Below are positions 57 to 64,000 of a stretch of 64,000 bases of DNA, piece after piece; the stretch's first letter is position 1, and each line of letters opens with the position of its first letter. A program made the position numbers and the translations under genes. Source of the stretch: Mastigias papua (lineage: Eukaryota; Cnidaria; Scyphozoa; Rhizostomeae; Mastigiidae); assembly GCA_964019165.1 (NCBI GenBank), contig OZ025278.1, positions 15,816,759 to 15,880,758 of the forward strand, in the 5' to 3' direction. The notes under the pieces were generated by a model. It made no database searches. It saw only the letters and a list, made by a program, of their open reading frames with translations, and had not been told where the DNA came from.

Positions 57-36733
<36,677 letters not shown>

Positions 36734-38309: not shown

Positions 38310-38520
38310 CCATGGTCAAGAATCTCTCATTTTCTTTCCATTCGCCTCTAAACTGAAAATTAAAGAATTTCAATTTTGGTAATTTCTTGGATAACGAACC
38401 AGCCTATAGATTTACTCTTTGCCTAAACTTCGCTATTTTCAATCACTTTCAATCCCTCTCAAAATCAACGATTTTCACTCTAAATCATATTTGGGACAAA
38501 TAAAACGTCTATACCCTTAC
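38310..38520. repeat. Decayed outer monomers of the 107-bp satellite
   Basis: Two heavily mutated monomers keep the monomer order, for example GGTCAAGAATCTCTCATTTT at 38312 and CTATAGATTTACTCTTTGCC near 38403. The monomer starting near 38510 has lost about 12 bp around GGCC. Divergence falls sharply by 38600. Confidence 0.7.
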
Positions 38521-41500
38521 TTTTTATATATTTTCATCACTTTTCAATGTTGAATCAAAATCAATTAATTTCAAATGTGGTCATTTTTGAGCACAATACC
38601 AAGGCTATAGCCTTACTTTTTGGCCAAAAATCGCTCACTTTCATCACTTTTCAATGTTGAATCAAAGTCAATTAATTTCAAATTTGGTCAGTTTTGAGCA
38701 AAATACCACGGCTATAGCCTTACTTTTTGGCCAAAAATCGCTCATTTTCATCACTTTTCAATGTTGAATGAAAATTAATCAATGTCAAATTTAGTTACTT
38801 TTGAGCAAAATAGCAAAGCTATAGCCTTACTTTTTGGCCAAAACTCGCTCATTTTCATCACTTTTCAATGTTGAATCAAAATCAATCAATTTCAAATTTG
38901 GTCATGTTTGAGCAAACTACCACGGCTATAGCCTTACTTTTTGGCCACAAATCGCTCATTGTCATCACTTTTCAATGTTGACTCAAAATCAATCAATGTC
39001 AAATTTAGTCATTTTTCAGCAAAATACTAAGGCTATAGCCTTACTTTTTAGCCATATATCGCTCATTGTCATCACTTGTCAATGTTGAATCACAATCAAT
39101 TAATTTCAAATTTGGTCATGTTTGAGCAAAATACCAAGGCTATAGCCTTACTTTTTGGCAACAAATCGCTCATTTTCATCACTTTTCAATGTTGAATCAA
39201 ACTCAATGCCTTTCAAATTTGGTCATGTTTGAGCAAAATACCAAGGCTATTCCCTTACTTTTTGGCCAAAAATCGCTCATTTTCATCACTTTTCAATGTT
39301 GAATGAAAATTAATCAATGTCAAATTTAGTTACTTTTGAGCAAAATACCAAGGCTATAGCCTTACTTTTTGGCCAAAAATCGCTCATTTTCATCACTTTT
39401 CAATGTTGAATCAAACTCAATGAGTTTCAAATTTGGTCATTTTTGAGCAAAATACCAAGGCTATTGCCTTACTTTTTGGCCAAAAATCGCTCATTTTCAT
39501 CACTTTTCAATGTTGAATCAAAGTCAATCAATTTCAAATGTGGTCATTTTGAGCAGAATACTAAGGCTATAGCCTTACTTTTTGGCCAAAAATCGCTCAT
39601 TGTCATCACTTTCCAATGTTGAATGAAAATTAATCAATGTCAAATTTAGTTACTTTTGAGCAAAATAGCAAGGCTATAGCCTTACTTTTTGGCCAATAAT
39701 CGTTCATTTTCATCACTTTTCAATGTTGAATCAAACTCAATGAGTTTCAAATTTGGTCATTTTTGAGCAAAATACCAAGGCTATTGCCTTACTTTTTGGC
39801 CAATAATCGCTCATTTTCATCACTTTTCAATGTGGAATCAAAGTCAATCAATTTCAAATTTGGTCATTTTTGAGGAAAATACCAAGGCTATAGCCTTACT
39901 TTTTGGCCAACAATCGCTCATTTTCATCACTTTTCAATGTTGAATCAAAGTCAATCAATTTCAAATGTGGTCATTTTTGAGCAGAATACTAAGGCTATAG
40001 CCTTACTTTTTGGCCAACCATCGCTCATTTTCATCACTTGTCAATGTTGAATCAAAGTCAATCAATTTCAAATTTGGTCATTTTTGAGCAAAATACTAAG
40101 GCTATAGCCCTACTTTTTGGCCACAAATCGCTCATTTTCATCACCTTTCAATGTTGAATCAAAATCAATCAATGTCACATTTAGTCATTTTTGAGCAAAA
40201 TACCAAGGCTATAGCCTTACTTTTTGGCCAAAAATCGCTCATTTTCATCACTTTTCAATGTTGAATCAAACTCACTCAATTTCAAATTTGGTCATTTTTG
40301 AGCAAAATACTAAGGCTATAGCCTTACTTTTTGGCCAATAATCGCTCATTTTCATCACTTTCCAATGTTGAATGAAAATTAATCAATGTCAAATTTAGTT
40401 ACTTTTGAGCAAAATACCAAGGCTATATCCTTACTTTTTGGCCAAAAATCGCTCATTTTCATCACTTTTCAATGTTGAATCAAACTCACTCAATTTCAAA
40501 TTTGGTCATTTTTGAGCACAATACTAAGGCTATAGCCTTACTTTTTGGCCAACAATCGCTCATTTTCATCACTTTCCAATGTTGAATGAAAATTAATCAA
40601 TGTCAAATTTAGTTACTTTTGAGCAAAATACCAAGGCTATAGCCTTACTTTTTGGCCAAAAATCGCTCATTTTCATCACTTTTCAATGTGGAATCAAAGT
40701 CAATCAATTTCAAATTTGGTCATTTTTGAGGAAAATACCAAGGCTATAGCCTTACTTTTTGGCCACAAATCGCTCATTTTCATGAGCTTTCAATGTTGAA
40801 TCACAATCAATCAATGTCACATTTAGTCATTTTTGAGCAAAATACCAAGGCTATAGCCTTACTTTTTGGCCAAAAATCGCTCATTTTCATCACTTTTCAA
40901 TGTTGAATCAAAATCACTCAATTTCAAATTTGGCCATTTTTGAGAACAATACTAAGGCTATAGCCTTACTTTTTGGCCAAAAATCGCTCATTTTCATCAC
41001 TTTTCAATGTTGAATCAAAATCACTCAATTTCAAATTTGGTCATTTGTGAGCAAAATACTAAGGCTATAGCCTTACTTTTTGGCCAACAATCGCTCATTT
41101 TCATCACTTTCCAATGTTGAATGAAAATTAATCAATGTCACATTTAGTCATGTTTGAGCAAAATACCAAGGCTATTGCCTTACTTTTTGGCCAAAAATCG
41201 CTCATTTTCATCACTTTTCAATGTTGAATCAACATCACTCAATTTCAAATTTGGTCATTTTTGAGCAAAATACTAAGGCTATAGCCTTACTCTTTGGCCA
41301 ACAATCGCTCATTTTCATCACTTGTCAATGTTGAATCAAGATCACTCAATTTCAAATTTGGTCATTTTTGAGCAAAATACTAAGGCTATAGCCTTACTTT
41401 TTGGCCAACAATCGCTCATTTTCATCACTTTCCAATTTTGAATGAAAATTAATCAATGTCAAATTTAGTTACTTTTGAGCAAAATACCAAGGCTATAGCC

Positions 41501-42049
41501 TTACTTTTTGGCCAATAATCGTTTATTTTCATCACTTTTCAATGTCGAATCAAACTCAATGAGTTTCAAATTTGGTCATTTTTGAGCAAAATACCAAGGC
41601 TATTGCCTTACTTTTTGGCCAAAAATCGCTCATTTTCATCACTTTTCAATGTGGAATCAAAGTCAATCAATTTCAAATTTGGTCATTTTTGAGGAAAATA
41701 CCAAGGCTATAGCCTTACTTTTTGGCCAACACTCGCTCATTTTCATCACTTTTCAATGTTGAATCAAAGTCAATCAATTTCAAATGTGGTCATTTTTGAG
41801 CAGAATACTAAGGCTATAGCCTTACTTTTTGGCCAAACATCGCTCATTTTCATCACTTTTCAATGTTGAATCAAAATCACTCAATTTCAAATTTGGTCAT
41901 TTTTGAGCAAAATACTAAGGCTATAGCCCTACTTTTTGGCCACAAATCGCTCATTTTCATCACCTTTCAATGTTGAATCAAAATCAATCAATGTCACATT
42001 TAGTCATTTTTGAGCAAAATACCAAGGCTATAGCCTTACTTTTTGGCCA

Positions 42050-45000
42050 AAAATCGCTCATTTTCATCACTTTTCAATGTTGAATCAAACTCACTCAATT
42101 TCAAATTTGGTCATTTTTGAGCAAAATACTAAGGCTATAGCCTTACTTTTTGGCCAACAATCGCTCATTTTCATCACTTTCCAATGTTGAATGAAAATTA
42201 ATCAATGTCAAATTTAGTTACTTTTGAGCAAAATACCAAGGCTATAGCCTTACTTTTTGGCCAAAAATCGCTCATTTTCATCACCTTTCAATGTTGAATC
42301 AAAATCAATCAATGTCACATTTAGTCATTTTTGAGCAAAATACCAAGGCTATAGCCTTACTTTTTGGCCAAAAATCGCTCATTTTCATCACTTTTCAATG
42401 TTGAATCAAACTCACTCAATTTCAAATTTGGTCATCTTTGAGCACAATACTAAGGCTATAGCCTTACTTTTTGGCCAACAATCGCTCATTTTCATCACTT
42501 TCCAATGTTGAATGAAAATTAATCAATGTCAAATTTAGTTACTTTTGAGCAAAATACCAAGGCTATAGCCTTACTTTTTGGCCAAAAATCGCTCATTTTC
42601 ATCACTTTTCAATGTTGAATCAAACTCAATGAGTGTCAAATTTGGTCATTTTTGAGCAAAATACCAAGGCTATTGCCTTACTTTTTGGCCAAAAATCGCT
42701 CATTTTCATCACTTTTCAATGTGGAATCAAAGTCAATCAATGTCAAATTTGGTCATTTTTGAGGAAAATACCAAGGCTATAGCCTTACTTTTTGGCCAAA
42801 AATCGCTCATTTTCATGAGCTTTCAATGTTGAATCAAAATTAATCAATGTCACATTTAGTCATTTTTGAGCAAAATACCAAGGCTATAGCCTTACTTTTT
42901 GGCCAAAAATCGCTCATTTTCATCACTTTTCAATGTGGAATCAAAGTCAATCACTTTCAAATTTGGTCATTTTTGAGGAAAATACCAAGGCTATAGCCTT
43001 ACTTTTTGGCCACAAATCGCTCATTTTCATCACTTGTCAATGTTGAATCAAGATCACTCAATTTCAAATTTGGTCATTTTTGAGCAAAATACTAAGGCTA
43101 TAGCCTTACTTTTTGGCCAACAATCGCTCATTTTCATCACTTTCCAATTTTGAATGAAAATTAATCAATGTCAAATTTAGTTACTTTTGAGCAAAATAGC
43201 AAGGCTATAGCCTTACTTTTTGGCCAAAAATCGCTCATTTTCATCACTTTTCAATGTTGAATCAAACTCACTCAATTTCAAATTTGGTCATTTTTGAGCA
43301 AAATACTAAGGCTATAGCCTTACTTTTTGGCCAACAATCGCTCATTTTCATCACTTTCCAATGTTGAATGAAAATTAATCAATGTCAAATTTAGTTACTT
43401 TTGAGCAAAATACCAAGGCTATAGCCTTACTTTTTGGCCAAAAATCGCTCATTTTCATCACCTTTCAATGTTGAATCAAAATCAATCAATGTCACATTTA
43501 GTCATTTTTGAGCAAAATACCAAGGCTATAGCCTTACTTTTTGGCCAAAAATCGCTCATTTTCATCACTTTTCAATGTTGAATCAAACTCACTCAATTTC
43601 AAATTTGGTCATCTTTGAGCACAATACTAAGGCTATAGCCTTACTTTTTGGCCAACAATCGCTCATTTTCATCACTTTCCAATGTTGAATGAAAATTAAT
43701 CAATGTCAAATTTAGTTACTTTTGAGCAAAATACCAAGGCTATAGCCTTACTTTTTGGCCAAAAATCGCTCATTTTCATCACTTTTCAATGTTGAATCAA
43801 ACTCAATGAGTGTCAAATTTGGTCATTTTTGAGCAAAATACCAAGGCTATTGCCTTACTTTTTGGCCAAAAATCGCTCATTTTCATCACTTTTCAATGTG
43901 GAATCAAAGTCAATCAATGTCAAATTTGGTCATTTTTGAGGAAAATACCAAGGCTATAGCCTTACTTTTTGGCCAAAAATCGCTCATTTTCATGAGCTTT
44001 CAATGTTGAATCAAAATTAATCAATGTCACATTTAGTCATTTTTGAGCAAAATACCAAGGCTATAGCCTTACTTTTTGGCCAAAAATCGCTCATTTTCAT
44101 CACTTTTCAATGTGGAATCAAAGTCAATCACTTTCAAATTTGGTCATTTTTGAGGAAAATACCAAGGCTATAGCCTTACTTTTTGGCCACAAATCGCTCA
44201 TTTTCATCACTTGTCAATGTTGAATCAAGATCACTCAATTTCAAATTTGGTCATTTTTGAGCAAAATACTAAGGCTATAGCCTTACTTTTTGGCCAACAA
44301 TCGCTCATTTTCATCACTTTCCAATTTTGAATGAAAATTAATCAATGTCAAATTTAGTTACTTTTGAGCAAAATAGCAAGGCTATAGCCTTACTTTTTGG
44401 CCAAAAATCGCTCATTTTCATCACTTTTCAATGTTGAATCAAACTCACTCAATTTCAAATTTGGTCATTTTTGAGCAAAATACTAAGGCTATAGCCTTAC
44501 TTTTTGGCCAACAATCGCTCATTTTCATCACTTTCCAATGTTGAATGAAAATTAATCAATGTCAAATTTAGTTACTTTTGAGCAAAATACCAAGGCTATA
44601 GCCTTACTTTTTGGCCAAAAATCGCTCATTTTCATCACCTTTCAATGTTGAATCAAAATCAATCAATGTCACATTTAGTCATTTTTGAGCAAAATACCAA
44701 GGCTATAGCCTTACTTTTTGGCCAAAAATCGCTCATTTTCATCACTTTTCAATGTTGAATCAAACTCACTCAATTTCAAATTTGGTCATTTTTGAGCACA
44801 ATACTAAGGCTATAGCCTTACTTTTTGGCCAACAATCGCTCATTTTCATCACTTTCCAATGTTGAATGAAAATTAATCAATGTCAAATTTAGTTACTTTT
44901 GAGCAAAATACCAAGGCTATAGCCTTACTTTTTGGCCAAAAATCGCTCATTTTCATCACTTTTCAATGTTGAATCAAACTCAATGAGTGTCAAATTTGGT

Positions 45001-45260
45001 CATTTTTGAGCAAAATACCAAGGCTATTGCCTTACTTTTTGGCCAAAAATCGCTCATTTTCATCACTTTTCAATGTGGAATCAAAGTCAATCAATTTCAA
45101 ATTTGGTCATTTGTGAGGAAAATACCAAGGCTATAGCCTTACTTTTTGGCCAAAAATCGCTCATTTTCATGAGCTTTCAATGTTGAATCAAAATCAATCA
45201 ATGTCACATTTAGTCATTTTTGAGCGAAATACCAAGGCTATAGCCTTACTTTTTGGCCAA
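42050..45260. repeat. 1177-bp (11-mer) higher-order repeat, about 3 copies
   Basis: Diagnostic words recur exactly 1177 bp apart: GGTCATCTTTGAGCACAATA at 42430 and 43607 (with CATTTTT at 44784), and the ATGAGCTTTCAATG monomer near 42820, 43997 and 45174. Copies 2 and 3 also share their left part. Confidence 0.92.
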
Positions 45261-46319
45261 AAATCGCTCATTTTCATCACTTTTCAATGTTGAATCAAAA
45301 TCACTCAATTTCAAATTTGTTCATTTTTGAGAACAATACTAAGGCTATAGCCTTACTTTTTGGCCAAAAATCGCTCATTTTCATCACTTTTCAATGTTGA
45401 ATCAAAATCACTCAATTTCAAATTTGGTCATTTGTGAGCAAAATACTAAGGCTATAGCCTTACTTTTTGGCCAACAATCGCTCATTTTCATCACTTTCCA
45501 ATGTTGAATGAAAATTAATCAATGTCACATTTAGTCATTTTTGAGCAAAATACCAAGGCTATAGCCTTACTTTTTGGCCAAAAATCGCTCATTTTCATCA
45601 CTTTTCAATGTGGAATCAAAGTCAATCAATTTGAAATTTGGTCATTTTTGAGGAAAATACCAAGGCTATAGCCTTACTTTTTGGCCACAAATCGCTCATT
45701 TTCATGAGCTTTCAATGTTGAATCAAAATCAATCAATGTCACATTTAGTCATTTTTGAGCAAAATACCAAGGCTATAGCCTTACTTTTTGGCCAAAAATC
45801 GCTCATTTTCATCACTTTTCAATGTTGAATCAAAATCACTCAATTTCAAATTTGGTCATTTGTGAGCAAAATACTAAGGCTATAGCCTTACTTTTTGGCC
45901 AACAATCGCTCATTTTCATCACTTTCCAATGTTGAATGAAAATTAATCAATGTCACATTTAGTCATGTTTGAGCAAAATACCAAGGCTATAGCCTTACTT
46001 TTTGGCCAAAAATCGCTCATTTTCATCACTTTTCAATGTTGAATCAACATCACTCAATTTCAAATTTGGTCATTTTTGAGCAAAATACTAAGGCTATAGC
46101 CTTACTCTTTGGCCAACAATCGCTCATTTTGATCACTTTCCAATGTTGAATGAAAATTAATCAATGTCAAATTTAGTTACTTTTGAGCCTAGTAGCAATG
46201 CTATAGCCTTACTTTTTGGCCAATAATCGTTCATTTTCATCACTTTTCAATGTTGAATCAAATTCAATGAGTTTCAAATTTGGTCATGTGTGAGCAAAAT
46301 ACCAAGGCTATTGCCTTAC

Positions 46320-48257
46320 TTTTTGGCCAAACATCCCTCATTTTCATCGCTTTTCAATGTTGAATCAAAATCACTCAATTTCAAATTTGGTCATTTTTGA
46401 GCAAAATACTAAGGCTATAGCCTTACTCTTTGGCCAACAATCGCTCATTTTGATCACTTTCCAATGTTGAATGAAAATTAATCAATGTCAAATTTAGTTA
46501 CTTTTGAGCCTAATAGCAATGCTATAGCCTTACTTTTTGGCCAAAAGTCGCTCATTGTCATCACCTTTCAATGTTGAATCAAAATCAATGAGTTTCAAAT
46601 TTGGTTATGTTTGAGCAAAATACCAAGGCTATTGCCTTACTTTCTGGCCAAAAATCGCTCATTTTCATCACTTTTCAATGTTGAATCAAAGTCAATCAAT
46701 TTCACATTTGGTCATGTTTGAGGAAAATACCATGGCTATAGCCTTACTGTTTGGCCAAAAATCGCTCATTTTCATCACTTTTCAATGATGAATCCAACTC
46801 AATGAGTGTCAAATTTGGTCATTTTTCAGCAAAATACCAAGGCTATTGCCTTACTTCTTGGGCAAAAATCGCTCATTTTCATCACTGGTCAATGTTGAAT
46901 CAAAATCAATCAATGTCAAATTTGGTCATTGTTGAGCAAAATACCAAGGCTATAGCCTTACTCTTTGGCAACAAATCGCTCATTTTCATGACTTTTCAAT
47001 GTTGAATCACAATCAATCAATGTCACATTTAGTCATTTGTGAGCAAAATACCAAGGCTATAGCCTTACTTTTTGGCCAAAACTCGCTCATTTTCATCACT
47101 TTTCAATGTTGAATCAAATTCAATGAGTTTCAAATTTGGTCATGTGTGAGCAAAATACCAAGGCTATTGCCTTACTTTTTGGCCAAAAATCGCTCATTTT
47201 CATCACTTTTCAATGTTGAATCAAAATCAATCAATTTCACATTTGGTCATGTTTGAGCAAAATAGCAAGGCTATAGCCTTAATTTTTGGCCAAAACTCGC
47301 TCATTTTCATCACTTTTCAATGTTGAATCAAATTCAATGAGTTTCAAATTTGGTCATGTGTGAGCAAAATACCAAGGCTATTGCCTTACTTTTTGGCCAA
47401 AAATCGCTCATTTTCATCACTTTTCAATGTGGAATCAAAGTCAATCAATTTCAAATTTGGTCATTTTTGAGCAGAATACTAAGGCTATAGCCTTACTTTT
47501 TGGCCAAACATCCCTCATTTTCATCGCTTTTCAATGTTGAATCAAAATCACTCAATTTCAAATTTGGTCATTTTTGAGCAAAATACTAAGGCTATAGCCT
47601 TACTCTTTGGCCAACAATCGCTCATTTTGATCACTTTCCAATGTTGAATGAAAATTAATCAATGTCAAATTTAGTTACTTTTGAGCCTAATAGCAATGCT
47701 ATAGCCTTACTTTTTGGCCAAAAGTCGCTCATTGTCATCACTTTTCAATGTTGAATCAAAATCAATGAGTTTCAAATTTGGTTATGTTTGAGCAAAATAC
47801 CAAGGCTATTGCCTTACTTTCTGGCCAAAAATCGCTCATTTTCATCACTTTTCAATGTTGAATCAAAGTCAATCAATTTCATATTTGGTCATGTTTGAGG
47901 AAAATACCATGGCTATAGCCTTACTGTTTGGCCAAAAATCGCTCATTTTCATCACTTTTCAATGATGAATCCAACTCAATGAGTGTCAAATTTGGTCATT
48001 TTTCAGCAAAATACCAAGGCTATTGCCTTACTTCTTGGGCAAAAATCGCTCATTTTCATCACTGGTCAATGTTGAATCAAAATCAATCAATGTCAAATTT
48101 GGTCATTGTTGAGCAAAATACCAAGGCTATAGCCTTACTCTTTGGCAACAAATCGCTCATTTTCATGACTTTTCAATGTTGAATCACAATCAATCAATGT
48201 CACATTTAGTCATTTGTGAGCAAAATACCAAGGCTATAGCCTTACTTTTTGGCCAAA
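46320..48257. repeat. Second 1177-bp-offset duplication in the satellite
   Basis: About 7 monomers at 46320-47080 reappear at 47497-48257 almost unchanged (ACATCCCTCATTTTCATCGC at 46331 and 47508; the unusual GAGCCTAATAGCAATGC in both). The 4 monomers between contain a local 214-bp dimer repeat. Confidence 0.9.
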
Positions 48258-50759
48258 AATCGCTCATTTTCATCACTTGTCAATCTTGAATCAAAATCCA
48301 GACAATGTCAAATTTAGTCATTTTTCAGCAAAATACTAAGGCTATAGCCTTACTTTTTGGCCAAAAGTCGCTCATTGTCATCACTTTTCAATGTTGAATC
48401 AAAGTCAATCAATTTCAAATTTGGTCATGTTTGAGCAAAATACCAAGGCTATAGCCTTACTGTTTGGCCAACAATCGCTCATATTCATCACTTTTCAATG
48501 TTGAATCAAACTCAATCAATTTCAAATTTGGTCATTTTTCAGCAAAATACCAAGGCTATTGCCTTACTTTTTGGCCAAAAATCGCTCATTTTCATCACTT
48601 TTCAATGTTGAATCAAAATCAATCAATTTCACATTTGGTCATGTTTGAGCAAAATACCAAGGCTATAGCCTTACTTTTTGGCCAATAATCGCTCATTTTC
48701 ATCACTTTTCAATGTTGAATCAAAATCTATCAATTTCAAATTTGGTCATTTTTGAGCAAAATACCATGGCTATAGCCTTACTGTTTGGCCAAAAATCGCT
48801 CATTTTCATCACTTTTCAATGATGAATCCAACTCAATGAGTGTCAAATTTGGTCATTTTTCAGCAAAATACCAAGGCTATTGCGTTACTTCTTGGGCAAA
48901 AATCGCTCATTTTCATCACTGGTCAATGTTGAATCAAATCAATCAATGTCAAATTTGGTCATTTTTGAGCAAAATACCAAGGCTATAGCCTTACTTTTTG
49001 GCCAATAATCGCTCATTTTCATCACTTTTCAATGTTGAATCAAAATCTATCAATTTCAAATTTGGTCATTTTTGAGCAACATAGCAAGGCTATAGCCTTA
49101 CTTTTTGGCCAAAACTCGCTCATTTTCATCACTTTTCAATGATGAATTCAACTCAATGAGTGTCAAATTTGGTCATTTTTCAGCAAAATACCAAGGCTAT
49201 TGCGTTACTTCTTGGGCAAAAATCGCTCATTTTCATCACTGGTCAATGTTGAATCAAATCAATCAATGTCAAATTTGGTCATTTTTGAGTAAAATACCAA
49301 GGCTATAGCCTTACTCTTTGGCAACAAATCGCTCATTTTCATGACTTTTCAATGTTGAATCACAATCAATCAATGTCACATTTAGTCATTTGTGAGCAAA
49401 ATACCAAGGCTATAGCCTTACTTTTTGGCCAAAAATCGCTCATTTTCATCACTTGTTAATCTTGAATCAAGATCCAGACAATGTCAAATTTAGTCATTTT
49501 TCAGCAAAATACTAAGGCTATAGCCTTACTTTTTGGCCAAAAGTCGCTCATTGTCATCACTTTTCAATGTTGAATCAAAGTCAATCAATTTCAAATTTGG
49601 TCATGTTTGAGCAAAATACCAAGGCTATAGCCTTACTGTTTGGCCAAAAATCGCTCATTTTCATCACTTTTCAATGTTGAATCAAACTCAATCAATTTCA
49701 AAATTTGGTCATTTTTCAGCAAAATACCAAGGCTATTGCCTTACTTTTTGGCCAAAAATCGCTCATTTTCATCACTTTTCAATGTTGAATCAAAATCAAT
49801 CAATTTCACATTTGGTCATGTTTGAGCAAAATACCAAGGCTATTGCCTTACTTCTTGGGCAAAAATCGCTCATTTTCATCACTTTTCAATGTTGAATCAA
49901 AATCAATCAATGTCAAATTTGGTCATTTTTGAGCAAAATACCAAGGCTATAGCCTTACTCTTTGGCAACAAATCGCTCATTTTCATGACTTGTCAATGTT
50001 GAATCACAATCAATCAATGTCACATTTAGTCATTTGTGAGCAAAATACCAAGGCTATAGCCTTACTTTTTGGCCAAAAATCGCTCATTTTCATCACTTGT
50101 CAATCTTGAATCAAAATCCAGACAATGTCAAATTTAGTCATTTTTCAGCAAAATACTAAGGCTATAGCCTTACTTTGTGGCCAAAAGTCGCTCATTGTCA
50201 TCACTTTTTAATGTTGAATCAAAGTCAATCAATTTCAAATTTGGTCATGTTTGAGCAAAATACCAAGGCTATAGCCTTACTGTTTGGCCAAAAATCGCTC
50301 ATTTTCATCACTTTTCAATGTTGAATCAAACTCAATCAATTTCAAATTTGGTCATTTTTCAGCAAAATACCAAGGCTATTGCCTTACTTTTTGGCCAAAA
50401 ATCGCTCATTTTCATCACTTTTCAATGTTGAATCAAAATCAATCAATTTCACATTTGGTCATGTTTGAGCAAAATACCAAGGCTATAGCCTTACTTTTTG
50501 GCCAATAATCGCTCATTTTCATCACTTTTCAATGTTGAATCAAAATCTATCAATTTCAAATTTGGTCATTTTTGAGCAAAATAGCAAGGCTATAGCCTTA
50601 CTTTTTGGCCAAAACTCGCTCATTTTCATCACTTTTCAATGTTGAATCAAACTCAATGAGTGTCAAATTTGGTCATTTGTGAGCATAATACCAAGGCTAT
50701 AGCCTTACTCTTTGGCCAAAAATCGCTCATTTTCATCACTTTTCAATGTTGAATCAAAC

Positions 50760-52290
50760 TCAATCAATTTCAAATTTGGTCATTTTTCAGCAAAATACCA
50801 AGGCTATTGCCTTACTTTTTGGCCAAAAATCGCTCATTTTCATCACTTTTCAATGTTGAATCAAAATCAATCAATTTCACATTTGGTCATGTTTGAGCAA
50901 AATACCAAGGCTATAGCCTTACTTTTTGGCCAATAATCGCTCATTTTCATCACTTTTCAATGTTGAATCAAAATCTATCAATTTCAAATTTGGTCATTTT
51001 TGAGCAAAATAGCAAGGCTATAGCCTTACTTTTTGGCCAAAACTCGCTCATTTTCATCACTTTTCAATGTTGAATCAAACTCAATGAGTGTCAAATTTGG
51101 TCATTTGTGAGCAAAATACCAAGGCTATAGCCTTACTCTTTGGCAACAAAACGCTCATTTTCATCACTTTTCAATGTGGAATCAAAGTCAATCAATTTCA
51201 AATTTGGTCATTTTTGAGGAAAATACCAAGGCTATAGCCTTACTGTTTGGCCAAAAATCGCTCATTTTCATCACCTTTCAATGTTGAATCAAAATCAATC
51301 AATGTCACATTTAGTCATTTTTGAGCAAAATACCAAGGCTATAGCCTTACTTTTTGGCCAATAATCGCTCATTTTCATCACTTTTCAATGTTGAATCAAA
51401 ATCTATCAATTTCAAATTTGGTCATTTTTGAGCAAAATAGCAAGGCTATAGCCTTACTTTTTGGCCAAAACTCGCTCATTTTCATCACTTTTCAATGATG
51501 AATCCAACTCAATGAGTGTCAAATTTGGTCATTTTTCAGCAAAATACCAAGGCTATTGCCTTACTTTTTGGCCAAAAATCGCTCATTTTCATCACTTTTC
51601 AATGTTGAATCAAAATCAATCAATTTCACATTTGGTCATGTTTGAGCAAAATACCAAGGCTATAGCCTTACTTTTTGGCCAATAATCGCTCATTTTCATC
51701 ACTTTTCAATGTTGAATCAAAATCTATCAATTTCAAATTTGGTCATTTTTGAGCAAAATAGCAAGGCTATAGCCTTACTTTTTGGCCAAAACTCGCTCAT
51801 TTTCATCACTTTTCAATGTTGAATCAAACTCAATGAGTGTCAAATTTGGTCATTTGTGAGCAAAATACCAAGGCTATAGCCTTACTCTTTGGCAACAAAA
51901 CGCTCATTTTCATCACTTTTCAATGTGGAATCAAAGTCAATCAATTTCAAATTTGGTCATTTTTGAGGAAAATACCAAGGCTATAGCCTTACTGTTTGGC
52001 CAAAAATCGCTCATTTTCATCACCTTTCAATGTTGAATCAAAATCAATCAATGTCACATTTAGTCATTTTTGAGCAAAATACCAAGGCTATAGCCTTACT
52101 TTTTGGCCAATAATCGCTCATTTTCATCACTTTTCAATGTTGAATCAAAATCTATCAATTTCAAATTTGGTCATTTTTGAGCAAAATAGCAAGGCTATAG
52201 CCTTACTTTTTGGCCAAAACTCGCTCATTTTCATCACTTTTCAATGATGAATCCAACTCAATGAGTGTCAAATTTGGTCATTTTTCAGCA
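50760..52290. repeat. 749-bp (7-mer) higher-order repeat, 2 copies
   Basis: CAAAATCTATCAATTTC, AAACTCGCTC, GGCAACAAAACGCTC and the GTGGAATC monomer all recur with a 749-bp shift (e.g. 50971 and 51720). Confidence 0.9.
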
Positions 52291-52299
52291 AAATACCAA

Positions 52300-55200
52300 G
52301 GCTATTGCGTTACTTCTTGGGCAAAAATCGCTCATTTTCATCACTGGTCAATGTTGAATCAAAATCAATCAATGTCAAATTTGGTCATTTTTGAGTAAAA
52401 TACCAAGGCTATAGCCTTACTCTTTGGCAACAAATCGCTCATTTTCATGACTTTTCAATGTTGAATCACAATCAATCAATGTCACATTTAGTCATATGTG
52501 AGCAACATACCAAGGCTATAGCCTTACTTTTTGGCCAAAAATCGCTCATTTTCATCACGTGTCAATCTTGAATCAAAATCCAGACAATGTCAAATTTAGT
52601 CATTTTTCAGCAAAATACTAAGGCTATAGCCTTACTTTTTGGCCAAAAGTCGCTCATTGTCATCACTTTTCAATGTTGAATCAAAGTCAATCAATTTCAA
52701 ATTTGGTCATGTTTGAGCAAAATACCAAGGCTATTGCCTTACTTTTTGGCCAAAAATCGCTCATTTTCATCACTTTTCAATGTTGAATCAAAATCAATCA
52801 ATTTCACAATAGGTCATGTTTGAGCAAAATACCAAGGCTATTGCCTTACTTCTTGGGCAAAAATCGCTCATTTTCATCACTGGTCAATGTTGAATCAAAA
52901 TCAATCAATGTCAAATTTGGTCATTTTTGAGCAAAATACCAAGGCTATAGCCTTACTCTTTGGCAACAAATCGCTCATTTTCATGACTTGTCAATGTTGA
53001 ATCACAATCAATCAATGTCACATTTAGTCATGTGTGAGCAAAATACCAAGGCTATAGCCTTACTTTTTGGCCAAAAATCGCTCATTTTCATCACTTGTCA
53101 ATCTTGAATCAAAATCCAGACAATGTCAAATTTAGTCATTTTTCAGCAAAATACTAAGGCTATAGCCTTACTTTGTGGCCAAAAGTCGCTCATTGTCATC
53201 ACTTTTTAATGTTGAATCAAAGTCAATCAATTTCAAATTTGGTCATGTTTGAGCAAAATACCAAGGCTATAGCCTTACTGTTTGGCCAAAAATCGCTCAT
53301 TTTCATCACTTTTCAATGTTGAATCAAACTCAATCAATTTCAAATTTGGTCATTTTTCAGCAAAATACCAAGGCTATTGCCTTACTTTTTGGCCAAAAAT
53401 CGCTCATTTTCATCACTTTTCAATGTTGAATCAAAATCAATCAATTTCACATTTGGTCATGTTTGAGCAAAATACCAAGGCTATAGCCTTACTTTTTGGC
53501 CAATAATCGCTCATTTTCATCACTTTTCAATGTTGAATCAAAATCTATCAATTTCAAATTTGGTCGTTTTTGAGCAAAATACCAAGGCTATAGCCTTACT
53601 TTTTGGCCAAAAATCGCTCATTTTCATCACTTTTCAATGTTGAATCAAAATCACTCAATTTCAAATTTGGTCATTTTTGAGAACAATACTAAGGCTATAG
53701 CCTTACTTTTTGGCAACAACACGCTCATTTTCATCACTTTTCAATGTGGAATCAAAGTCAATCAATTTCAAATTTGGTCATTTTTGAGGAAAATACCAAG
53801 GCTATAGCCTTACTGTTTGGCCAAAAATCGCTCATTTTCATCACCTTTCAATGTTGAATCAAAATCAATCAATGTCACATTTAGTCATTTTTGAGCAAAA
53901 TACCAAGGCTATAGCCTTACTTTTTGGCCAAAAATCGCTCATTTTCATCACTTTTCAATGTTGAATCAAAATCACTCAATTTCAAATTTGGTCATTTTTG
54001 AGCAAAATACTAAGGCTATAGCCTTACTCTTTGGCAACAAATCGCTCATTTTCATGACTTTTCAATGTTGAATCAAAATCAATCAATGTCACATTTAGTC
54101 GTTTTTGAGCAAAATACCAAGGCTATTGCGTTACTTCTTGGGGAAAAATCGCTCATTTTCATCACTGGTCAATGTTGAATCAAAATCAATCAATGTCAAA
54201 TTTGGTCATTTTTGAGTAAAATACCAAGGCTATAGCCTTACTCTTTGGCAACAAATCGCTCATTTTCATGACTTTTCAATGTTGAATCACAATCAATCAA
54301 TGTCACATTTAGTCATTTGTGAGCAACATACCAAGGCTATAGCCTTACTTTTTGGCCAAAAATCGCTCATTTTCATCACTTGTCAATCTTGAATCAAAAT
54401 CCAGACAATGTCAAATTTAGTCATTTTTCAGCAAAATACTAAGGCTATAGCCTTACTTTTTGGCCAAAAGCCGCTCATTGTCATCACTTTTCAATGTTGA
54501 ATCAAAGTCAATCAATTTCAAATTTGGTCATGTTTGAGCAAAATACCAAGGCTATTGCCTTACTTTTTGGCCAAAAATCGCTCATTTTCATCACTTTTCA
54601 ATGTTGAATCAAAATCAATCAATTTCACAATAGGTCATGTTTGAGCAAAATACCAAGGCTATTGCCTTACTTCTTGGGCAAAAATCGCTCATTTTCATCA
54701 CTGGTCAATGTTGAATCAAAATCAATCAATGTCAAATTTGGTCATTTTTGAGCAAAATACCAAGGCTATAGCCTTACTCTTTGGCAACAAATCGCTCATT
54801 TTCATGACTTGTCAATGTTGAATCACAATCAATCAATGTCACATTTAGTCATGTGTGAGCAAAATACCAAGGCTATAGCCTTACTTTTTGGCCAAAAATC
54901 GCTCATTTTCATCACTTGTCAATCTTGAATCAAAATCCAGACAATGTCAAATTTAGTCATTTTTCAGCAAAATACTAAGGCTATAGCCTTACTTTGTGGC
55001 CAAAAGTCGCTCATTGTCATCACTTTTTAATGTTGAATCAAAGTCAATCAATTTCAAATTTGGTCATGTTTGAGCAAAATACCAAGGCTATAGCCTTACT
55101 GTTTGGCCAAAAATCGCTCATTTTCATCACTTTTCAATGTTGAATCAAACTCAATCAATTTCAAATTTGGTCATTTTTCAGCAAAATACCAAGGCTATTG

Positions 55201-58200
55201 CCTTACTTTTTGGCCAAAAATCGCTCATTTTCATCACTTTTCAATGTTGAATCAAAATCAATCAATTTCACATTTGGTCATGTTTGAGCAAAATACCAAG
55301 GCTATAGCCTTACTTTTTGGCCAATAATCGCTCATTTTCATCACTTTTCAATGTTGAATCAAAATCTATCAATTTCAAATTTGGTCGTTTTTGAGCAAAA
55401 TACCAAGGCTATAGCCTTACTTTTTGGCCAAAAATCGCTCATTTTCATCACTTTTCAATGTTGAATCAAAATCACTCAATTTCAAATTTGGTCATTTTTG
55501 AGAACAATACTAAGGCTATAGCCTTACTTTTTGGCAACAACACGCTCATTTTCATCACTTTTCAATGTGGAATCAAAGTCAATCAATTTCAAATTTGGTC
55601 ATTTTTGAGGAAAATACCAAGGCTATAGCCTTACTGTTTGGCCAAAAATCGCTCATTTTCATCACCTTTCAATGTTGAATCAAAATCAATCAATGTCACA
55701 TTTAGTCATTTTTGAGCAAAATACCAAGGCTATAGCCTTACTTTTTGGCCAAAAATCGCTCATTTTCATCACTTTTCAATGTTGAATCAAAATCACTCAA
55801 TTTCAAATTTGGTCATTTTTGAGCAAAATACTAAGGCTATAGCCTTACTCTTTGGCAACAAATCGCTCATTTTCATGACTTTTCAATGTTGAATCAAAAT
55901 CAATCAATGTCACATTTAGTCGTTTTTGAGCAAAATACCAAGGCTATTGCGTTACTTCTTGGGGAAAAATCGCTCATTTTCATCACTGGTCAATGTTGAA
56001 TCAAAATCAATCAATGTCAAATTTGGTCATTTTTGAGTAAAATACCAAGGCTATAGCCTTACTCTTTGGCAACAAATCGCTCATTTTCATGACTTTTCAA
56101 TGTTGAATCACAATCAATCAATGTCACATTTAGTCATTTGTGAGCAACATACCAAGGCTATAGCCTTACTTTTTGGCCAAAAATCGCTCATTTTCATCAC
56201 TTGTCAATCTTGAATCAAAATCCAGACAATGTCAAATTTAGTCATTTTTCAGCAAAATACTAAGGCTATAGCCTTACTTTTTGGCCAAAAGCCGCTCATT
56301 GTCATCACTTTTCAATGTTGAATCAAAGTCAATCAATTTCAAATTTGGTCATGTTTGAGCAAAATACCAAGGCTATTGCCTTACTTTTTGGCCAAAAATC
56401 GCTCATTTTCATCACTTTTCAATGTTGAATCAAAATCAATCAATTTCACATTTGGTCATGTTTGAGCAAAATACCAAGGCTATTGCCTTACTTCTTGGGC
56501 AAAAATCGCTCATTTTCATCACTGGTCAATGTTGAATCAAAATCAATCAATGTCAAATTTGGTCATTTTTGAGCAAAATACCAAGGCTATAGCCTTACTC
56601 TTTGGCAACAAATCGCTCATTTTCATGACTTGTCAATGTTGAATCACAATCAATGAATGTCACATTTAGTCATTTGTGAGCAAAATACCAAGGCTATAGC
56701 CTTACTTTTTGGCCAAAAATCGCTCATTTTCATCACTTGTCAATCTTGAATCAAAATCCAGACAATGTCAAATTTAGTCATTTTTCAGCAAAATACTAAG
56801 GCTATAGCCTTACTTTGTGGCCAAAAGTCGCTCATTGTCATCACTTTTTAATGTTGAATCAAAGTCAATCAATTTCAAATTTGGTCATGTGTGAGCAAAA
56901 TACCAAGGCTATAGCCTTACTTTTTGGCCAAAAATCGCTCATTTTCATCACTTGTCAATCTTGAATCAAAATCCAGACAATGTCAAATTTAGTCATTTTT
57001 CAGCAAAATACTAAGGCTATAGCCTTACTTTGTGGCCAAAAGTCGCTCATTGTCATCACTTTTTAATGTTGAATCAAAGTCAATCAATTTCAAATTTGGT
57101 CATGTTTGAGCAAAATACCAAGGCTATAGCCTTACTGTTTGGCCAAAAATCGCTCATTTTCATCACTTTTCAATGTTGAATCAAACTCAATCAATTTCAA
57201 ATTTGGTCATTTTTCAGCAAAATACCAAGGCTATTGCCTTACTTTTTGGCCAAAAATCGCTCATTTTCATCACTTTTCAATGTTGAATCAAAATCAATCA
57301 ATTTCACATTTGGTCATGTTTGAGCAAAATACCAAGGCTATAGCCTTACTTTTTGGCCAATAATCGCTCATTTTCATCACTTTTCAATGTTGAATCAAAA
57401 TCTATCAATTTCAAATTTGGTCGTTTTTGAGCAAAATACCAAGGCTATAGCCTTACTTTTTGGCCAAAAATCGCTCATTTTCATCACTTTTCAATGTTGA
57501 ATCAAAATCACTCAATTTCAAATTTGGTCATTTTTGAGAACAATACTAAGGCTATAGCCTTACTTTTTGGCAACAACACGCTCATTTTCATCACTTTTCA
57601 ATGTGGAATCAAAGTCAATCAATTTCAAATTTGGTCATTTTTGAGGAAAATACCAAGGCTATAGCCTTACTGTTTGGCCAAAAATCGCTCATTTTCATCA
57701 CCTTTCAATGTTGAATCAAAATCAATCAATGTCACATTTAGTCATTTTTGAGCAAAATACCAAGGCTATAGCCTTACTTTTTGGCCAAAAATCGCTCATT
57801 TTCATCACTTTTCAATGTTGAATCAAAATCACTCAATTTCAAATTTGGTCATTTTTGAGCAAAATACTAAGGCTATAGCCTTACTCTTTGGCAACAAATC
57901 GCTCATTTTCATGACTTTTCAATGTTGAATCAAAATCAATCAATGTCACATTTAGTCGTTTTTGAGCAAAATACCAAGGCTATTGCGTTACTTCTTGGGG
58001 AAAAATCGCTCATTTTCATCACTGGTCAATGTTGAATCAAAATCAATCAATGTCAAATTTGGTCATTTTTGAGTAAAATACCAAGGCTATAGCCTTACTC
58101 TTTGGCAACAAATCGCTCATTTTCATGACTTTTCAATGTTGAATCACAATCAATCAATGTCACATTTAGTCATTTGTGAGCAACATACCAAGGCTATAGC

Positions 58201-59230
58201 CTTACTTTTTGGCCAAAAATCGCTCATTTTCATCACGTGTCAATCTTGAATCAAAATCCAGACAATGTCAAATTTAGTCATTTTTCAGCAAAATACTAAG
58301 GCTATAGCCTTACTTTTTGGCCAAAAGCCGCTCATTGTCATCACTTTTCAATGTTGAATCAAAGTCAATCAATTTCAAATTTGGTCATGTTTGAGCAAAA
58401 TACCAAGGCTATTGCCTTACTTTTTGGCCAAAAATCGCTCATTTTCATCACTTTTCAATGTTGAATCAAAATCAATCAATTTCACATTTGGTCATGTTTG
58501 AGCAAAATACCAAGGCTATTGCCTTACTTCTTGGGCAAAAATCGCTCATTTTCATCACTGGTCAATGTTGAATCAAAATCAATCAATGTCAAATTTGGTC
58601 ATTTTTGAGCAAAATACCAAGGCTATAGCCTTACTCTTTGGCAACAAATCGCTCATTTTCATGACTTGTCAATGTTGAATCACAATCAATGAATGTCACA
58701 TTTAGTCATTTGTGAGCAAAATACCAAGGCTATAGCCTTACTTTTTGGCCAAAAATCGCTCATTTTCATCACTTGTCAATCTTGAATCAAAATCCAGACA
58801 ATGTCAAATTTAGTCATTTTTCAGCAAAATACTAAGGCTATAGCCTTACTTTGTGGCCAAAAGTCGCTCATTGTCATCACTTTTTAATGTTGAATCAAAG
58901 TCAATCAATTTCAAATTTGGTCATGTTTGAGCAAAATACCAAGGCTATAGCCTTACTGTTTGGCCAAAAATCGCTCATTTTCATCACTTTTCAATGTTGA
59001 ATCAAACTCAATCAATTTCAAATTTGGTCATTTTTCAGCAAAATACCAAGGCTATTGCCTTACTTTTTGGCCAAAAATCGCTCATTTTCATCACTTTTCA
59101 ATGTTGAATCAAAATCAATCAATTTCACATTTGGTCATGTTTGAGCAAAATACCAAGGCTATAGCCTTACTTTTTGGCCAATAATCGCTCATTTTCATCA
59201 CTTTTCAATGTTGAATCAAAATCTATCAAT
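52300..59230. repeat. 1821-bp (17-mer) higher-order repeat, about 3.8 copies, one enlarged to 2036 bp
   Basis: The GGCTATTGCGTTACTTCTTG monomer marks starts at 52300, 54121, 55942 and 57978. Two spacings are 1821 bp (17 monomers, two of them 108 bp). The third is 2036 bp because a 215-bp dimer (CCAGACAATG monomer plus its neighbour) is present twice near 56740-57060. Copies differ by only a few bases (e.g. TTCACAATAGGTCATG in the first two, TTCACATTTGGTCATG in the next). Confidence 0.94.
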
Positions 59231-59579
59231 TTCAAATTTGGTCATTTTTGAGCAAAATACCAAGGCTATAGCCTTACTTTTTGGCCAAAACTCGCTCATT
59301 TTCATCACTTTTCAATGTTGAATCAAACTCAATGAGTGTCAAATTTGGTCATTTGTGAGCACAATACCAAGGCTATAGCCTTACTCTTTGGCAACAAAAC
59401 GCTCATTTTCATCACTTTTCAATGTGGAATCAAAGTCAATCAATTTCAAATTTGGTCATTTTTGAGGAAAATACCAAGGCTATAGCCTTACTGTTTGGCC
59501 AAAAATCGCTCATTTTCATCACCTTTCAATGTTGAATCAAAATCAATCAATGTCACATTTAGTCATTTTTGAGCAAAAT

Positions 59580-60500
59580 ACCAAGGCTATAGCCTTACTT
59601 TTTGGCCAAAAATCGCTCATTTTCATCACTTTTCAATGTTGAATCAACATCACTCAATTTCAAATTTGGTCATTTTTGAGCAAAATACTAAGGCTATAGC
59701 CTTACTTTTTGGCCAAAAGTCGCTCATTGTCATCACTTTTCAATGTTGAATCAAAATCAATGAGTTTCAAAGTTGGTCATGTTTGAGCAAAATACCAAGA
59801 CTATTGCCTTACTTTTTGGCCAAAAATCGCTCATTTTCATCACTTTTCAATGTTGAATCAAAATCAATCAATGTCACATTTAGTCATTTTTGAGCAAAAT
59901 ACCAAGGCTATAGCCTTACTTTTTGGCCACAAATTTCTCATTTTCATGACTTTTCAATGTTGAATCACAATCAATCAATGTCACATTTAGTCATTTTTGA
60001 GCAAAATACCAAGGCTATAGCCTTACTTTTTGGCCAAAAATCGCTCATTTTCATCACTTTTCAATGTTGAATCAACATCACTCAATTTCAAATTTGGTCA
60101 TTTTTGAGCAAAATACTAAGGCTATAGCCTTACTTTTTGGCCAAAAGTCGCTCATTGTCATCACTTTTCAATGTTGAATCAAAATCAATGAGTTTCAAAG
60201 TTGGTCATGTTTGAGCAAAATACCAAGACTATTGCCTTACTTTTTGGCCAAAAATCGCTCATTTTCATCACTTTTCAATGTTGAATCAAAATCAATCAAT
60301 GTCACATTTAGTCATTTTTGAGCAAAATACCAAGGCTATAGCCTTACTTTTTGGCCACAAATTTCTCATTTTCATGACTTTTCAATGTTGAATCACAATC
60401 AATCAATGTCACATTTAGTCATTTTTGAGCAAAATACCAAGGCTATAGCCTTACTTTTTGGCCAAAAATCGCTCATTTTCATCACTTTTCAATGTTGAAT
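59580..60500. repeat. 428-bp (4-mer) higher-order repeat, 2 copies
   Basis: ATCAACATCACTC at 59643 and 60071, and the rare TACCAAGACTATTGCC and ACAAATTTCTCATTTTCATG words, recur 428 bp apart. Confidence 0.9.
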
Positions 60501-60539
60501 CAACATCAATCAATTTCACATTTGGTCATGTTTGAGCAA

Positions 60540-62090
60540 ATTACTAAGGCTATAGCCTTACTTTTTGGCCAACAATCGCTCATTTTCATCACTTTTCAAT
60601 GTTGAATCAAACTCAATCAATTTCAAATTTGGTCATTTTTCAGCAAAATACCAAGGTTATAGCCGTACTGTTTGGCCAAAAATCGCTCATTTTCATCACT
60701 TTTCAATGTTGAATCAAACTCAATCAATTTCAAATTTGGTCATTTTTCAGCAAAATACCAAGGCTATTGCCTTACTTTTTGGCCAAAAATCGCTCAGTTT
60801 CATCACTTTTCAATGTTGAAACAAAATCAATCAATTTCAAATTTGGTCATGTTGGAGCAAAATACCAAGGCTATAGCCTTACTTTTTGGCCAATAATCGC
60901 TCATTCACATCACTTATCAATGGTGAATCACAATCAATCAACTTAAAATTTGGTCATTTTTGAGCAAAATACCAAGGCTATAGCCTTACTTTTTGGCCAA
61001 AAATCGCTCATTTTCATCACTTTTCAATGTTGAATCAACATCACTCAATGTCAAAGTTGGTCATTTTTGAGCAAATTACTAAGGCTATAGCCTTACTTTT
61101 TGGCCAACAATCGCTCATTTTCATCACTTTTCAATGTTGAATCAAACTCAATCAATTTCAAATTTGGTCATTTTTCAGCAAAATACCAAGGCTATAGCCG
61201 TACTGTTTGGCCAAAAATCGCTCATTTTCATCACTTTTCAATGTTGAATCAAACTCAATCAATTTCAAATTTGGTCATTTTTCAGCAAAATACCAAGGCT
61301 ATTGCCTTACTTTTTGGCCAAAAATCGCTCAGTTTCATCACTTTTCAATGTTGAAACAAAATCAATCAATTTCAAATTTGGTCATGTTGGAGCAAAATAC
61401 CAAGGCTATAGCCTTACTTTTTGGCCAATAATCGCTCATTCACATCACTTATCAATGGTGAATCACAATCAATCAACTTAAAATTTGGTCATTTTTGAGC
61501 AAAATACCAAGGCTATAGCCTTACTTTTTGGCCACAAATCGCTCATTTTCATCACTTTTCAATGTTGAATCAACATCACTCAATTTCAAAGTTGGTCATT
61601 TTTGAGCAAATTACTAAGGCTATAGCCTTACTTTTTGGCCAACAATCGCTCATTTTCATCACTTTTCAATGTTGAATCAAACTCAATCAATTTCAAATTT
61701 GGTCATTTTTCAGCAAAATACCAAGGCTATAGCCGTACTGTTTGGCCAAAAATCGCTCATTTTCATCACTTTTCAATGTTGAATCAAACTCAATCAATTT
61801 CAAATTTGGTCATTTTTCAGCAAAATACCAAGGCTATTGCCTTACTTTTTGGCCAAAAATCGCTCAGTTTCATCACTTTTCAATGTTGAAACAAAATCAA
61901 TCAATTTCAAATTTGGTCATGTTGGAGCAAAATACCAAGGCTATAGCCTTACTTTTTGGCCAATAATCGCTCATTCACATCACTTATCAATGGTGAATCA
62001 CAATCAATCAACTTAAAATTTGGTCATTTTTGAGCAAAATACCAAGGCTATAGCCTTACTTTTTGGCCAAAAATCGCTCATATTCATCAC
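60540..62090. repeat. 535-bp (5-mer) higher-order repeat, 3 copies
   Basis: The monomers with GCTCAGTTTCATCAC, GCTCATTCACATCACTTATC and ATAGCCGTACTGTTTGG recur at 535-bp spacing, nearly identical in three consecutive copies. Confidence 0.93.
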
Positions 62091-64000
62091 TTTTCAATGT
62101 TCAATCAATTTGAATCAATTTCAAATTTGATCATTTTTGAGCAAAATACCAAGGCTATAGCCTTACTGTTTGGCCACAAATCGCTCATTTTCATCACTTT
62201 TCAATGTTGAATCAAAGTCAATCAATTTCAAATGTGGTCATTTGTGAGCAAAATACCAAGGCTATAGCCTTACTTTTTGGCCAAAAATCGCTCACTTTCA
62301 TCACTTTTCAATCTTGAATTAAAATCAATCACTTTCAAAGTTGGCCATTTTTGAGCAAAATACCAAGGCTATAGCCTTACTTTTTGGCCAAACATCTCTC
62401 ATTTTCATCACTTTTCAATGTTGACTCACAATCAATCTAATTCAAAATTGGCCATTTTTGAGGAAAATACTAAGGCTATAGCCCTACTTTTTAGCCAAAT
62501 ATCGTTCATTGTCATCACTTTTCAATGTTCAATGACAATCAATCAATTAAAAATGTGGTCATGTTTGAGCAAAATACCAAGGTTATAGCCTTACTCTTTG
62601 CCAAAAATCGCTCATTTTCATCACTTTTCAATGTTGAATCAAAATCAATCAATTTCAAATTTGGTCATGTTTGAGCAAAATACCAAGGCTATAGCCGTAC
62701 TCTTTGGCAACAAATCGCTCATTTTCATCAATTTTCAATGTTGAATCAAAATCAATCAATTTCAAATGTGGTGATTTTTGAGCAAAATACCAAGGTTATA
62801 GTCTTACTTTTTGGCCAAAAATCGCTCACTTTCATCACTTTTCAATGTTGAATCAAAATCAATGAATTTACAATTTGGTCATGTTGGAGCAAAATACCAA
62901 GGCTATTGCCTTACTTCTTGGGCAAAAATCGCTCATTTTCATCACTGGTCAATGTTGAATCAAAATCAATCAATGTCAAATTTGGTCATTGTTGAGCAAA
63001 ATACCAAGGCTATAGCCTTACTCTTTGGCAACAAATCGCTCATTTTCATGACTTTTCAATGTTGAATCACAATCAATCAATGTCACATTTAGTCATTTGT
63101 GAGCAAAATACCAAGGCTATAGCCTTACTTTTTGGCCAAAAAATCGCTCATTTTCATCACTTGTCAATCTTGAATCAAAAACCAGACAATGTCAAATTTA
63201 GTCATTTTTCAGCAAAATACTAAGGCTATAGCCTTACTTTTTGTTCAAAAGTCGCTCATTGTCATCACTTTTCAATGTTGAATCAAAGTCAATCAATTTC
63301 AAATTTGGTCATGTTTGAGCAAAATACCAAGGCTATAGCCTTACTGTTTGGCCACAAATCGCTCAGTTTCATCACTTTTCAATGTTGAATCAAACTCAAT
63401 CAATTTCAAATTTGGTCATTTTTCAGCAAAATACCAAGGCTATTGCCTTACTTTCTGGCCAACAATCGCTCATTTTCATCACTTTCCAATGTTGAATGAA
63501 AATTAATCAATGTCACATTTAGTCATTTTTGAGCAAAATACCAAGGCTATAGCCTTACTTTTTGGCCAAAAATCGCTCATTTTCATCACTTTTCAATGTT
63601 GAATCAACATCACTCAATTTCAAATTTGGTCATTTTTGAGCAAAATACTAAGGCTATAGCCTTACTCTTTGGCCAACAATCGCTCATTTTGATCACTTTC
63701 CAATGTTGAATGAAAATTAATCAATGTCAAATTTAGTTACTTTTGAGCCTAATAGCAAGGCTATAGCCTTACTTTTTGGCCAATAATCGTTCATTTTCAT
63801 CACTTTTCAATGTTGAATCAAATTCAATGAGTTTCAAATTTGGTCATGTGTGAGCAAAATACCAAGGCTATTGCCTTACTTTTTGGCCAAAAATCGCTCA
63901 TTTTCATCACTTTTCAATGTGGAATCAAAGTCAATCAATTTCAAATTTGGTCATTTTTGAGCAGAATACTAAAGCTATAGCCTTACTTTTTGGCCAAACA

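Follow-up and report, generated by a model that had tools for sequence, protein, structure and literature searches.

The window analysed here, 64,000 nucleotides of the scyphozoan Mastigias papua (GenBank assembly GCA_964019165.1, contig OZ025278.1), is the last 64 kb of a contig of 15,880,758 bp, which we call C15. It ends in a head-to-tail array of a 107-bp satellite whose consensus monomer contains two 14-bp palindromes, P1 (AAGGCTATAGCCTT) and P2 (TTTTTGGCCAAAAA), separated by the 2 bp AC. An initial annotation, made from the sequence alone, proposed this 30-bp block as a candidate functional unit, either a paired site for a dimeric protein, a hairpin- or cruciform-forming element or a processing signal in satellite RNA. 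We find that P1 and P2 do not behave as one unit. The apparent two-part element resolves into a conserved palindromic box, P1, and a decaying neighbour, P2. The features of the satellite in the window are as follows.

38530..64000, + strand: 107-bp satellite array, head-to-tail, 238 near-complete copies, truncated by the end of contig C15
38543..38554, no strand: third partial dyad TTCAA-TG-TTGAA (consensus positions 14–25), in this array only among ten sampled
38601..38614, no strand: P1 in the first full monomer (consensus 72–85), recurring every 107 bp
38617..38630, no strand: P2 in the first full monomer (consensus 88–101), recurring every 107 bp
38313..38525, + strand: decayed satellite at the array edge, about two monomer lengths, 151 of 212 aligned bases matching the consensus, palindromes broken
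32113..32193, + strand: possible solitary decayed satellite fragment, a weak match (12.8 bits, E 0.0021)

Tandem Repeats Finder (TRF) placed the array at 38,530–63,998 (237.9 copies, 89% matches), and a wraparound alignment, from which the per-site make-up was derived, yielded 238 near-complete monomers, 218 of them exactly 107 bp long. The array start previously given as 38,521 is thus about right, the homogeneous array beginning at ~38,530 with decayed satellite before it. The copies comprise 128 unique sequences in 59 greedy clusters, 58 of which have a near-complete member (hereafter types), and these recur in repeated patches, with identical monomers commonest at lags 17, 11, 36 and 19 (among lags 1–59). 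This long patchwork of types shows the concerted evolution typical of satellite DNA. All copies of a 21-bp core of the satellite within the window lie on one strand (124 on +, 0 on −). A three-fold internal repeat of ~36 bp in the monomer is weakly indicated (3 of 300 shuffles score as high; TRF lists 37-bp periods too), which makes a relationship between P2 and the upstream TTTTTGAGCAAAA possible but unproved. Phased A-tracts were considered and rejected, with AA/TT power near 10.7 bp no higher than in base shuffles (86/500 as high).

The 30-bp block was searched, as the initial annotation had suggested, in 346,844,687 bases on 172 contigs, with all repeat counts being lower bounds. At up to three mismatches, at least 51,378 + 50,343 = 101,721 matches were found in many arrays, and a reversed-block control gave 0 matches in the same genome. 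By simple arithmetic (matches × 107 bp), the satellite occupies ~10.9 Mb, or 3% of the genome, a high copy number as expected of satellite DNA. The exact words occur at least 67,231 (P1) and at least 37,210 (P2) times, counts that cover these two of the 107 consensus 14-mers and include no non-palindromic control word. Arrays carrying a rare P2 variant lie at many places on contigs C1–C5 (among the first 100 of 495 matches listed), and further array places were found on C10, C11 and C23. The satellite therefore forms dispersed arrays rather than a single block per chromosome. Such a scatter, with many array sites on each large contig, argues against a role confined to the centromere.

At the other end of C15, the initial 1.5 kb (L031) is satellite too, on the opposite strand. 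This is the only satellite among 33 further 1.5-kb ends of chromosome-sized contigs (20 starts, that of C15 included, and 13 ends; some read N), 14 of which carry at least 138 telomere hexamers (TTAGGG or CCCTAA). At the starts of small contigs, satellite was present in C2, C7, C16 and C24 and absent from C9, C30 and C60. C15 may simply break within satellite; its end could also be subtelomeric.

To compare arrays, we aligned 799 copies (430 unique) from ten arrays: 238 from the window, 494 from C1 and 67 from contig starts. The C1 copies come from four places picked from block matches, where seven out of eight 10-kb stretches held satellite and L016 held none, while the contig-start copies (C2, C7, C15, C16 and C24) were not picked by the block. 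One C1 array, C1_18.95, pools three stretches (L012, L014 and L015), which might belong to two or more arrays. Averages over nine arrays omit C1_4.52, which has two unique monomers only. A C1 stretch (L009, C1:4523000–4532999) holds 37 copies with only two different sequences, both palindromes being intact in all; it is probably a very recent amplification.

The initial annotation stated that every consensus monomer carries both palindromes and that these occupy 30 of its 107 bp. This is correct for the consensus, but not for the individual copies: in the window array, P1 is exact in 171 of the 238, P2 in 86 and both in only 55, and both are intact in 11 of the 58 types. The extension of the first palindrome to 16 bp was also confirmed, ACTA preceding it in 54 copies and the longer palindrome being perfect in 50 of the 238. 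Across all 799 copies, P1 is exact in 647, P2 in 312 and both in 263; in the 67 unpicked contig-start copies, the counts are 57 for P1 and 21 for P2. P1 is exact in all ten array consensuses, and P2 is altered in three (C1_5.57, C7start and C16start). Types with an intact palindrome have more copies than the rest, by a mean factor of 1.9 for P1 (p 0.07) and 1.6 for P2 (p 0.047). This advantage was discarded as not distinctive (ranks of 7/107 and 23/107 among windows, respectively). The third partial dyad, also described initially, is present in the window, with intact arms in 145/238 copies, but is absent from the nine other sampled arrays (0/561), whose consensuses all depart from that of the window at position 20, 22 or 23, or at several of these. 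It is a local feature of the window array.

Per-site diversity separates the two palindromes. In the window array, mean entropy is 0.123 in P1, 0.359 in P2 and 0.284 outside the block; among the 107 circular 14-bp windows, ordered from lowest diversity, P1 ranks 3 and P2 92 (9 and 90 after collapse to 58 types). The expectation that both palindromes vary less than the remainder of the monomer is thus borne out for P1 and contradicted for P2. In 20,000 draws of random site sets, 1.3% matched the low value of P1 when all copies were counted, 1.9% for unique sequences and 4.7% for types. In the mean of nine arrays, no window varies less than P1 (1/107) and only one varies more than P2 (106/107); site sets matched for composition equal the low value of P1 in 0.03% of cases and the high value of P2 in 0.05%. 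Diversity rises beside P1, to 0.109 at position 71 and 0.126 at position 87.

The strength of the P1 signal depends on the arrays included, its rank within single arrays ranging from 1 to 43. Out of 2000 permutations, the lowest window fell to the value of P1 in 27 when nine arrays were used, in 82 without the window array, in 181 for C1 alone, in 766 for the two C15 arrays and in 906 for the five contig-start arrays. Moreover, the best low-diversity segment spans positions 102–28 with nine arrays; of the four remaining groupings, three have a segment that begins at 102 or 104, and that of C15 alone runs from 73 to 24. This zone of ~102–28, which contains no perfect palindrome, is likewise conserved. 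Because the permutation counts vary by array set and a second zone is conserved too, we consider the conservation of P1 real but moderate, and not unique.

A structure maintained by pairing should show compensatory changes between arms, as the initial annotation anticipated, but in total these are no more frequent than chance, in the window or across the ten arrays. For the window, we used one ungapped representative for each of 54 of the 59 clusters; no pair was changed on both sides (mean of 0.6 by random dealing), and 500 of 500 shuffles paired at least as well. Among the 430 unique monomers, double changes that keep pairing number two in P1 (0.57 expected), both at the central pair, and seven in P2 (6.2 expected under independence), where pairs 88/101 (0 versus 1.5) and 89/100 (1 versus 2.3) fall below expectation. 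Genome-wide, 47 copies from five array places are changed on both sides of P1 pair 75/82, the rest of the word being exact, and pairing is kept in ten of these, from two places. P2 pair 89/100 is changed on both sides in 495 copies; a hand tally of the first 100 matches listed gave 50 that keep pairing, against ~43 expected from the letter frequencies among those matches. In the window array, none of the deviant forms of P1 or P2 is a perfect palindrome, nor is there a perfect P1 palindrome of other sequence among the 561 copies outside the window. Overall, the data give no clear indication that symmetry itself is maintained, even if individual P2 variants do retain it.

Nor do the palindromes appear to be favoured breakpoints of duplications within the array. 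Deduplication of 105 near-identical duplicated segments left 54 left and 57 right ends, of which 10 (15.1 expected by length) and 17 (16.0 expected) lie inside the block. Since neither count exceeds the length expectation appreciably, internal junctions are not enriched at the palindromes. The sole outer edge studied, at ~38,510–38,530, does fall in the block: where decayed monomers meet the homogeneous array, the T run of P2 is followed by ATAT rather than GGCC, a single case.

The satellite is probably an ordinary dispersed one, spread by block duplication, whose palindromes descend from a founder. We infer that multi-monomer blocks were copied via unequal exchange, conversion or break-induced replication, which would have produced the ~58 types in patches and the related arrays elsewhere. 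A founder monomer would have chanced to hold two side-by-side palindromes, and copying would have spread both. P2 would then drift freely, losing its symmetry in most copies, while P1 lies inside one of the monomer's two zones of slow change. If more than drift acts on P1, its letters rather than its folding ability would be kept, for example by a dimeric DNA-binding protein sitting there.

Four observations weigh against this account. When the consensus was shuffled 20,000 times with its dinucleotides preserved, 522 shuffles contained at least one 14-bp palindrome and five contained two that do not overlap, but only one had such a pair no more than 2 bp apart, so the initial judgement that adjacent dyads are unlikely by chance stands. 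P2 pair 91/98 shows four pairing double changes against 1.0 expected. A perfect P2 palindrome of other sequence occurs in 20 of the 561 copies outside the window (19 in C1_18.95 and one in C1_5.57). Lastly, the position of P1 as the lowest window over nine arrays is poorly explained by drift alone.

The alternative that survives best is that P1 alone is a candidate binding site for a homodimeric protein, similar to a CENP-B box but palindromic, with P2 as a variable spacer. We regard this as rather unlikely. The low diversity of P1 over nine arrays, the rise in diversity beside it and its preponderance over P2 in exact copies, including those not chosen by the block, argue for such a site; the contig-start and C15 arrays, in which P1 is not distinctive, the second conserved zone without a perfect palindrome, the loss of P1 in the edge relics and the lack of a known protein for P1 argue against it. 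The proposed paired site thus reduces to a possible sequence-specific site at P1, and a P1–P2 pair is not supported, because diversity is low in P1 but high in P2 and compensatory changes in total do not exceed chance. A more specific proposal appears improbable: an undescribed homodimeric protein would bind the satellite at the ~67,000 exact P1 sites of its dispersed arrays, and this binding would have kept P1 while P2 decayed. P1 could serve as bait, with P2 as control, in looking for a protein that recognizes the satellite; should none bind, the satellite would illustrate palindromes propagated solely by copying.

A search with TTCGNNNNANNCGGG, which we take to be the core of the CENP-B box, gave 33 matches with up to two mismatches in the window (chance mean 46) and none in the array, so by this motif the monomer contains no box core. 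One exact match lies outside the array, at 18792–18806 on the − strand.

It is very unlikely that both palindromes form hairpins or cruciforms relevant to chromatin, replication or array rearrangement. Short dyads have been proposed as centromere features (PMC8997354), and the monomer RNA folds better than shuffles (z −2.64 for this strand and −1.96 for the other). In whole-monomer folds, however, P2 has no hairpin of its own and pairs with the upstream TTTTTGAGCAAAA around P1, and this longer dyad shows no covariation beyond shuffles. As DNA, the 30-bp block forms both hairpins, but 59 of 200 shuffles fold as well; the lack of compensation beyond chance in total and the placement of duplication ends also count against a cruciform unit. 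Least likely of all, a ribozyme or processing signal in satellite RNA has a precedent in tandem-repeat RNAs with self-cleaving motifs (PMC7229834), but no Rfam family reaches its gathering score anywhere in the window, no self-cleaving motif was thus recognized, and neither structure covaries beyond shuffles.

Comparable palindrome-bearing satellites have already been published, and P1 is best viewed as a testable candidate site within this known kind. We group the satellite there because short palindromes and low-variability segments have been reported in others. In one study (PMC5139131), bivalve phBglII400 has two palindromes, of 12 and 10 bp, with junctions on them, and DTHS3 has 6- and 8-bp palindromes and a 15-bp low-variability segment. 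The present monomer shares with both the short internal palindromes, a likeness by description and not by compared sequences; its palindromes are 14 bp long and adjacent, and duplication ends show no clustering at them, in contrast to the junctions of phBglII400. Like the present satellite, the dyad-rich centromeric satellites surveyed in PMC8997354 and PMC9070824 are AT-rich with dyads, but these surveys count dyads below 10 bp; the arrays here are dispersed over large contigs, their dyads show no compensation in total and P2 decays. The CENP-B box of alpha satellite (PMC8997354) is likewise a short low-diversity box inside a monomer, a resemblance only. Tribolium madens TmSat1 and TmSat2 have a comparable ~110-bp basic unit with short inverted repeats, but their macro-dyads of opposed subarrays (PMC13081366) have no counterpart within the window, where all copies of the 21-bp core lie on one strand. 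The authors of a grasshopper study regard short inverted repeats as an outcome of stochastic satellite dynamics (PMC8822648), and in sugar beet a motif containing two palindromes borders a minisatellite (PMC2820488). Searching the literature with four sequences from the block found no paper, nor did a search for a 107-bp satellite monomer in cnidarians; no title or abstract opening among the papers listed by further searches mentions this satellite. The exact 23-bp core had 0 matches in viral contigs and 0 in bacterial or archaeal genome contigs.

The decayed satellite at the array edge aligns to the consensus with a score of 160, while none of 200 shuffles scored above 48. In it, neither P1 copy nor the one complete P2 copy is intact; the two partial copies of P2 are truncated or broken, and no changed palindrome pair still pairs. 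Identity to the consensus does not differ between the palindromes (43/57) and the rest (104/151; Fisher p 0.40).

Other features of the window lie upstream of the satellite.

13763-14050, 22170-22496, 24272-24517, 33556-33831 and 34633-34908, + strand: stretches of exon size that match a 2-oxoglutarate dehydrogenase E1 gene (E1_dh, Transket_pyr, OxoGdeHyase_C)
29402-30097, + strand, also 25091-25351 and 26021-26311: reverse transcriptase fragment (RVT_1)
36287-36383: short array of the 13-bp repeat AATGGTGATATCG, 7.5 copies (TRF)

The E1 match at 22170-22496 is below Pfam's cut-off; those at 33556-33831 and 34633-34908 score higher with OGDH than with DHTKD1, and the satellite begins ~3.5 kb past the last matched stretch. 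The reverse transcriptase fragment, for which 128 relatives were found, is probably from a non-LTR (long terminal repeat) element, and weaker RVT_1 and zf-RVT matches, below cut-off, lie near it.

Variants in the satellite array show no transition bias, with 90 transversions against 43 transitions among 133 site-alleles. Across the ten arrays, the counts are 119 and 67 (alleles present in at least three copies), and fixed differences between array consensuses are often G-to-C.

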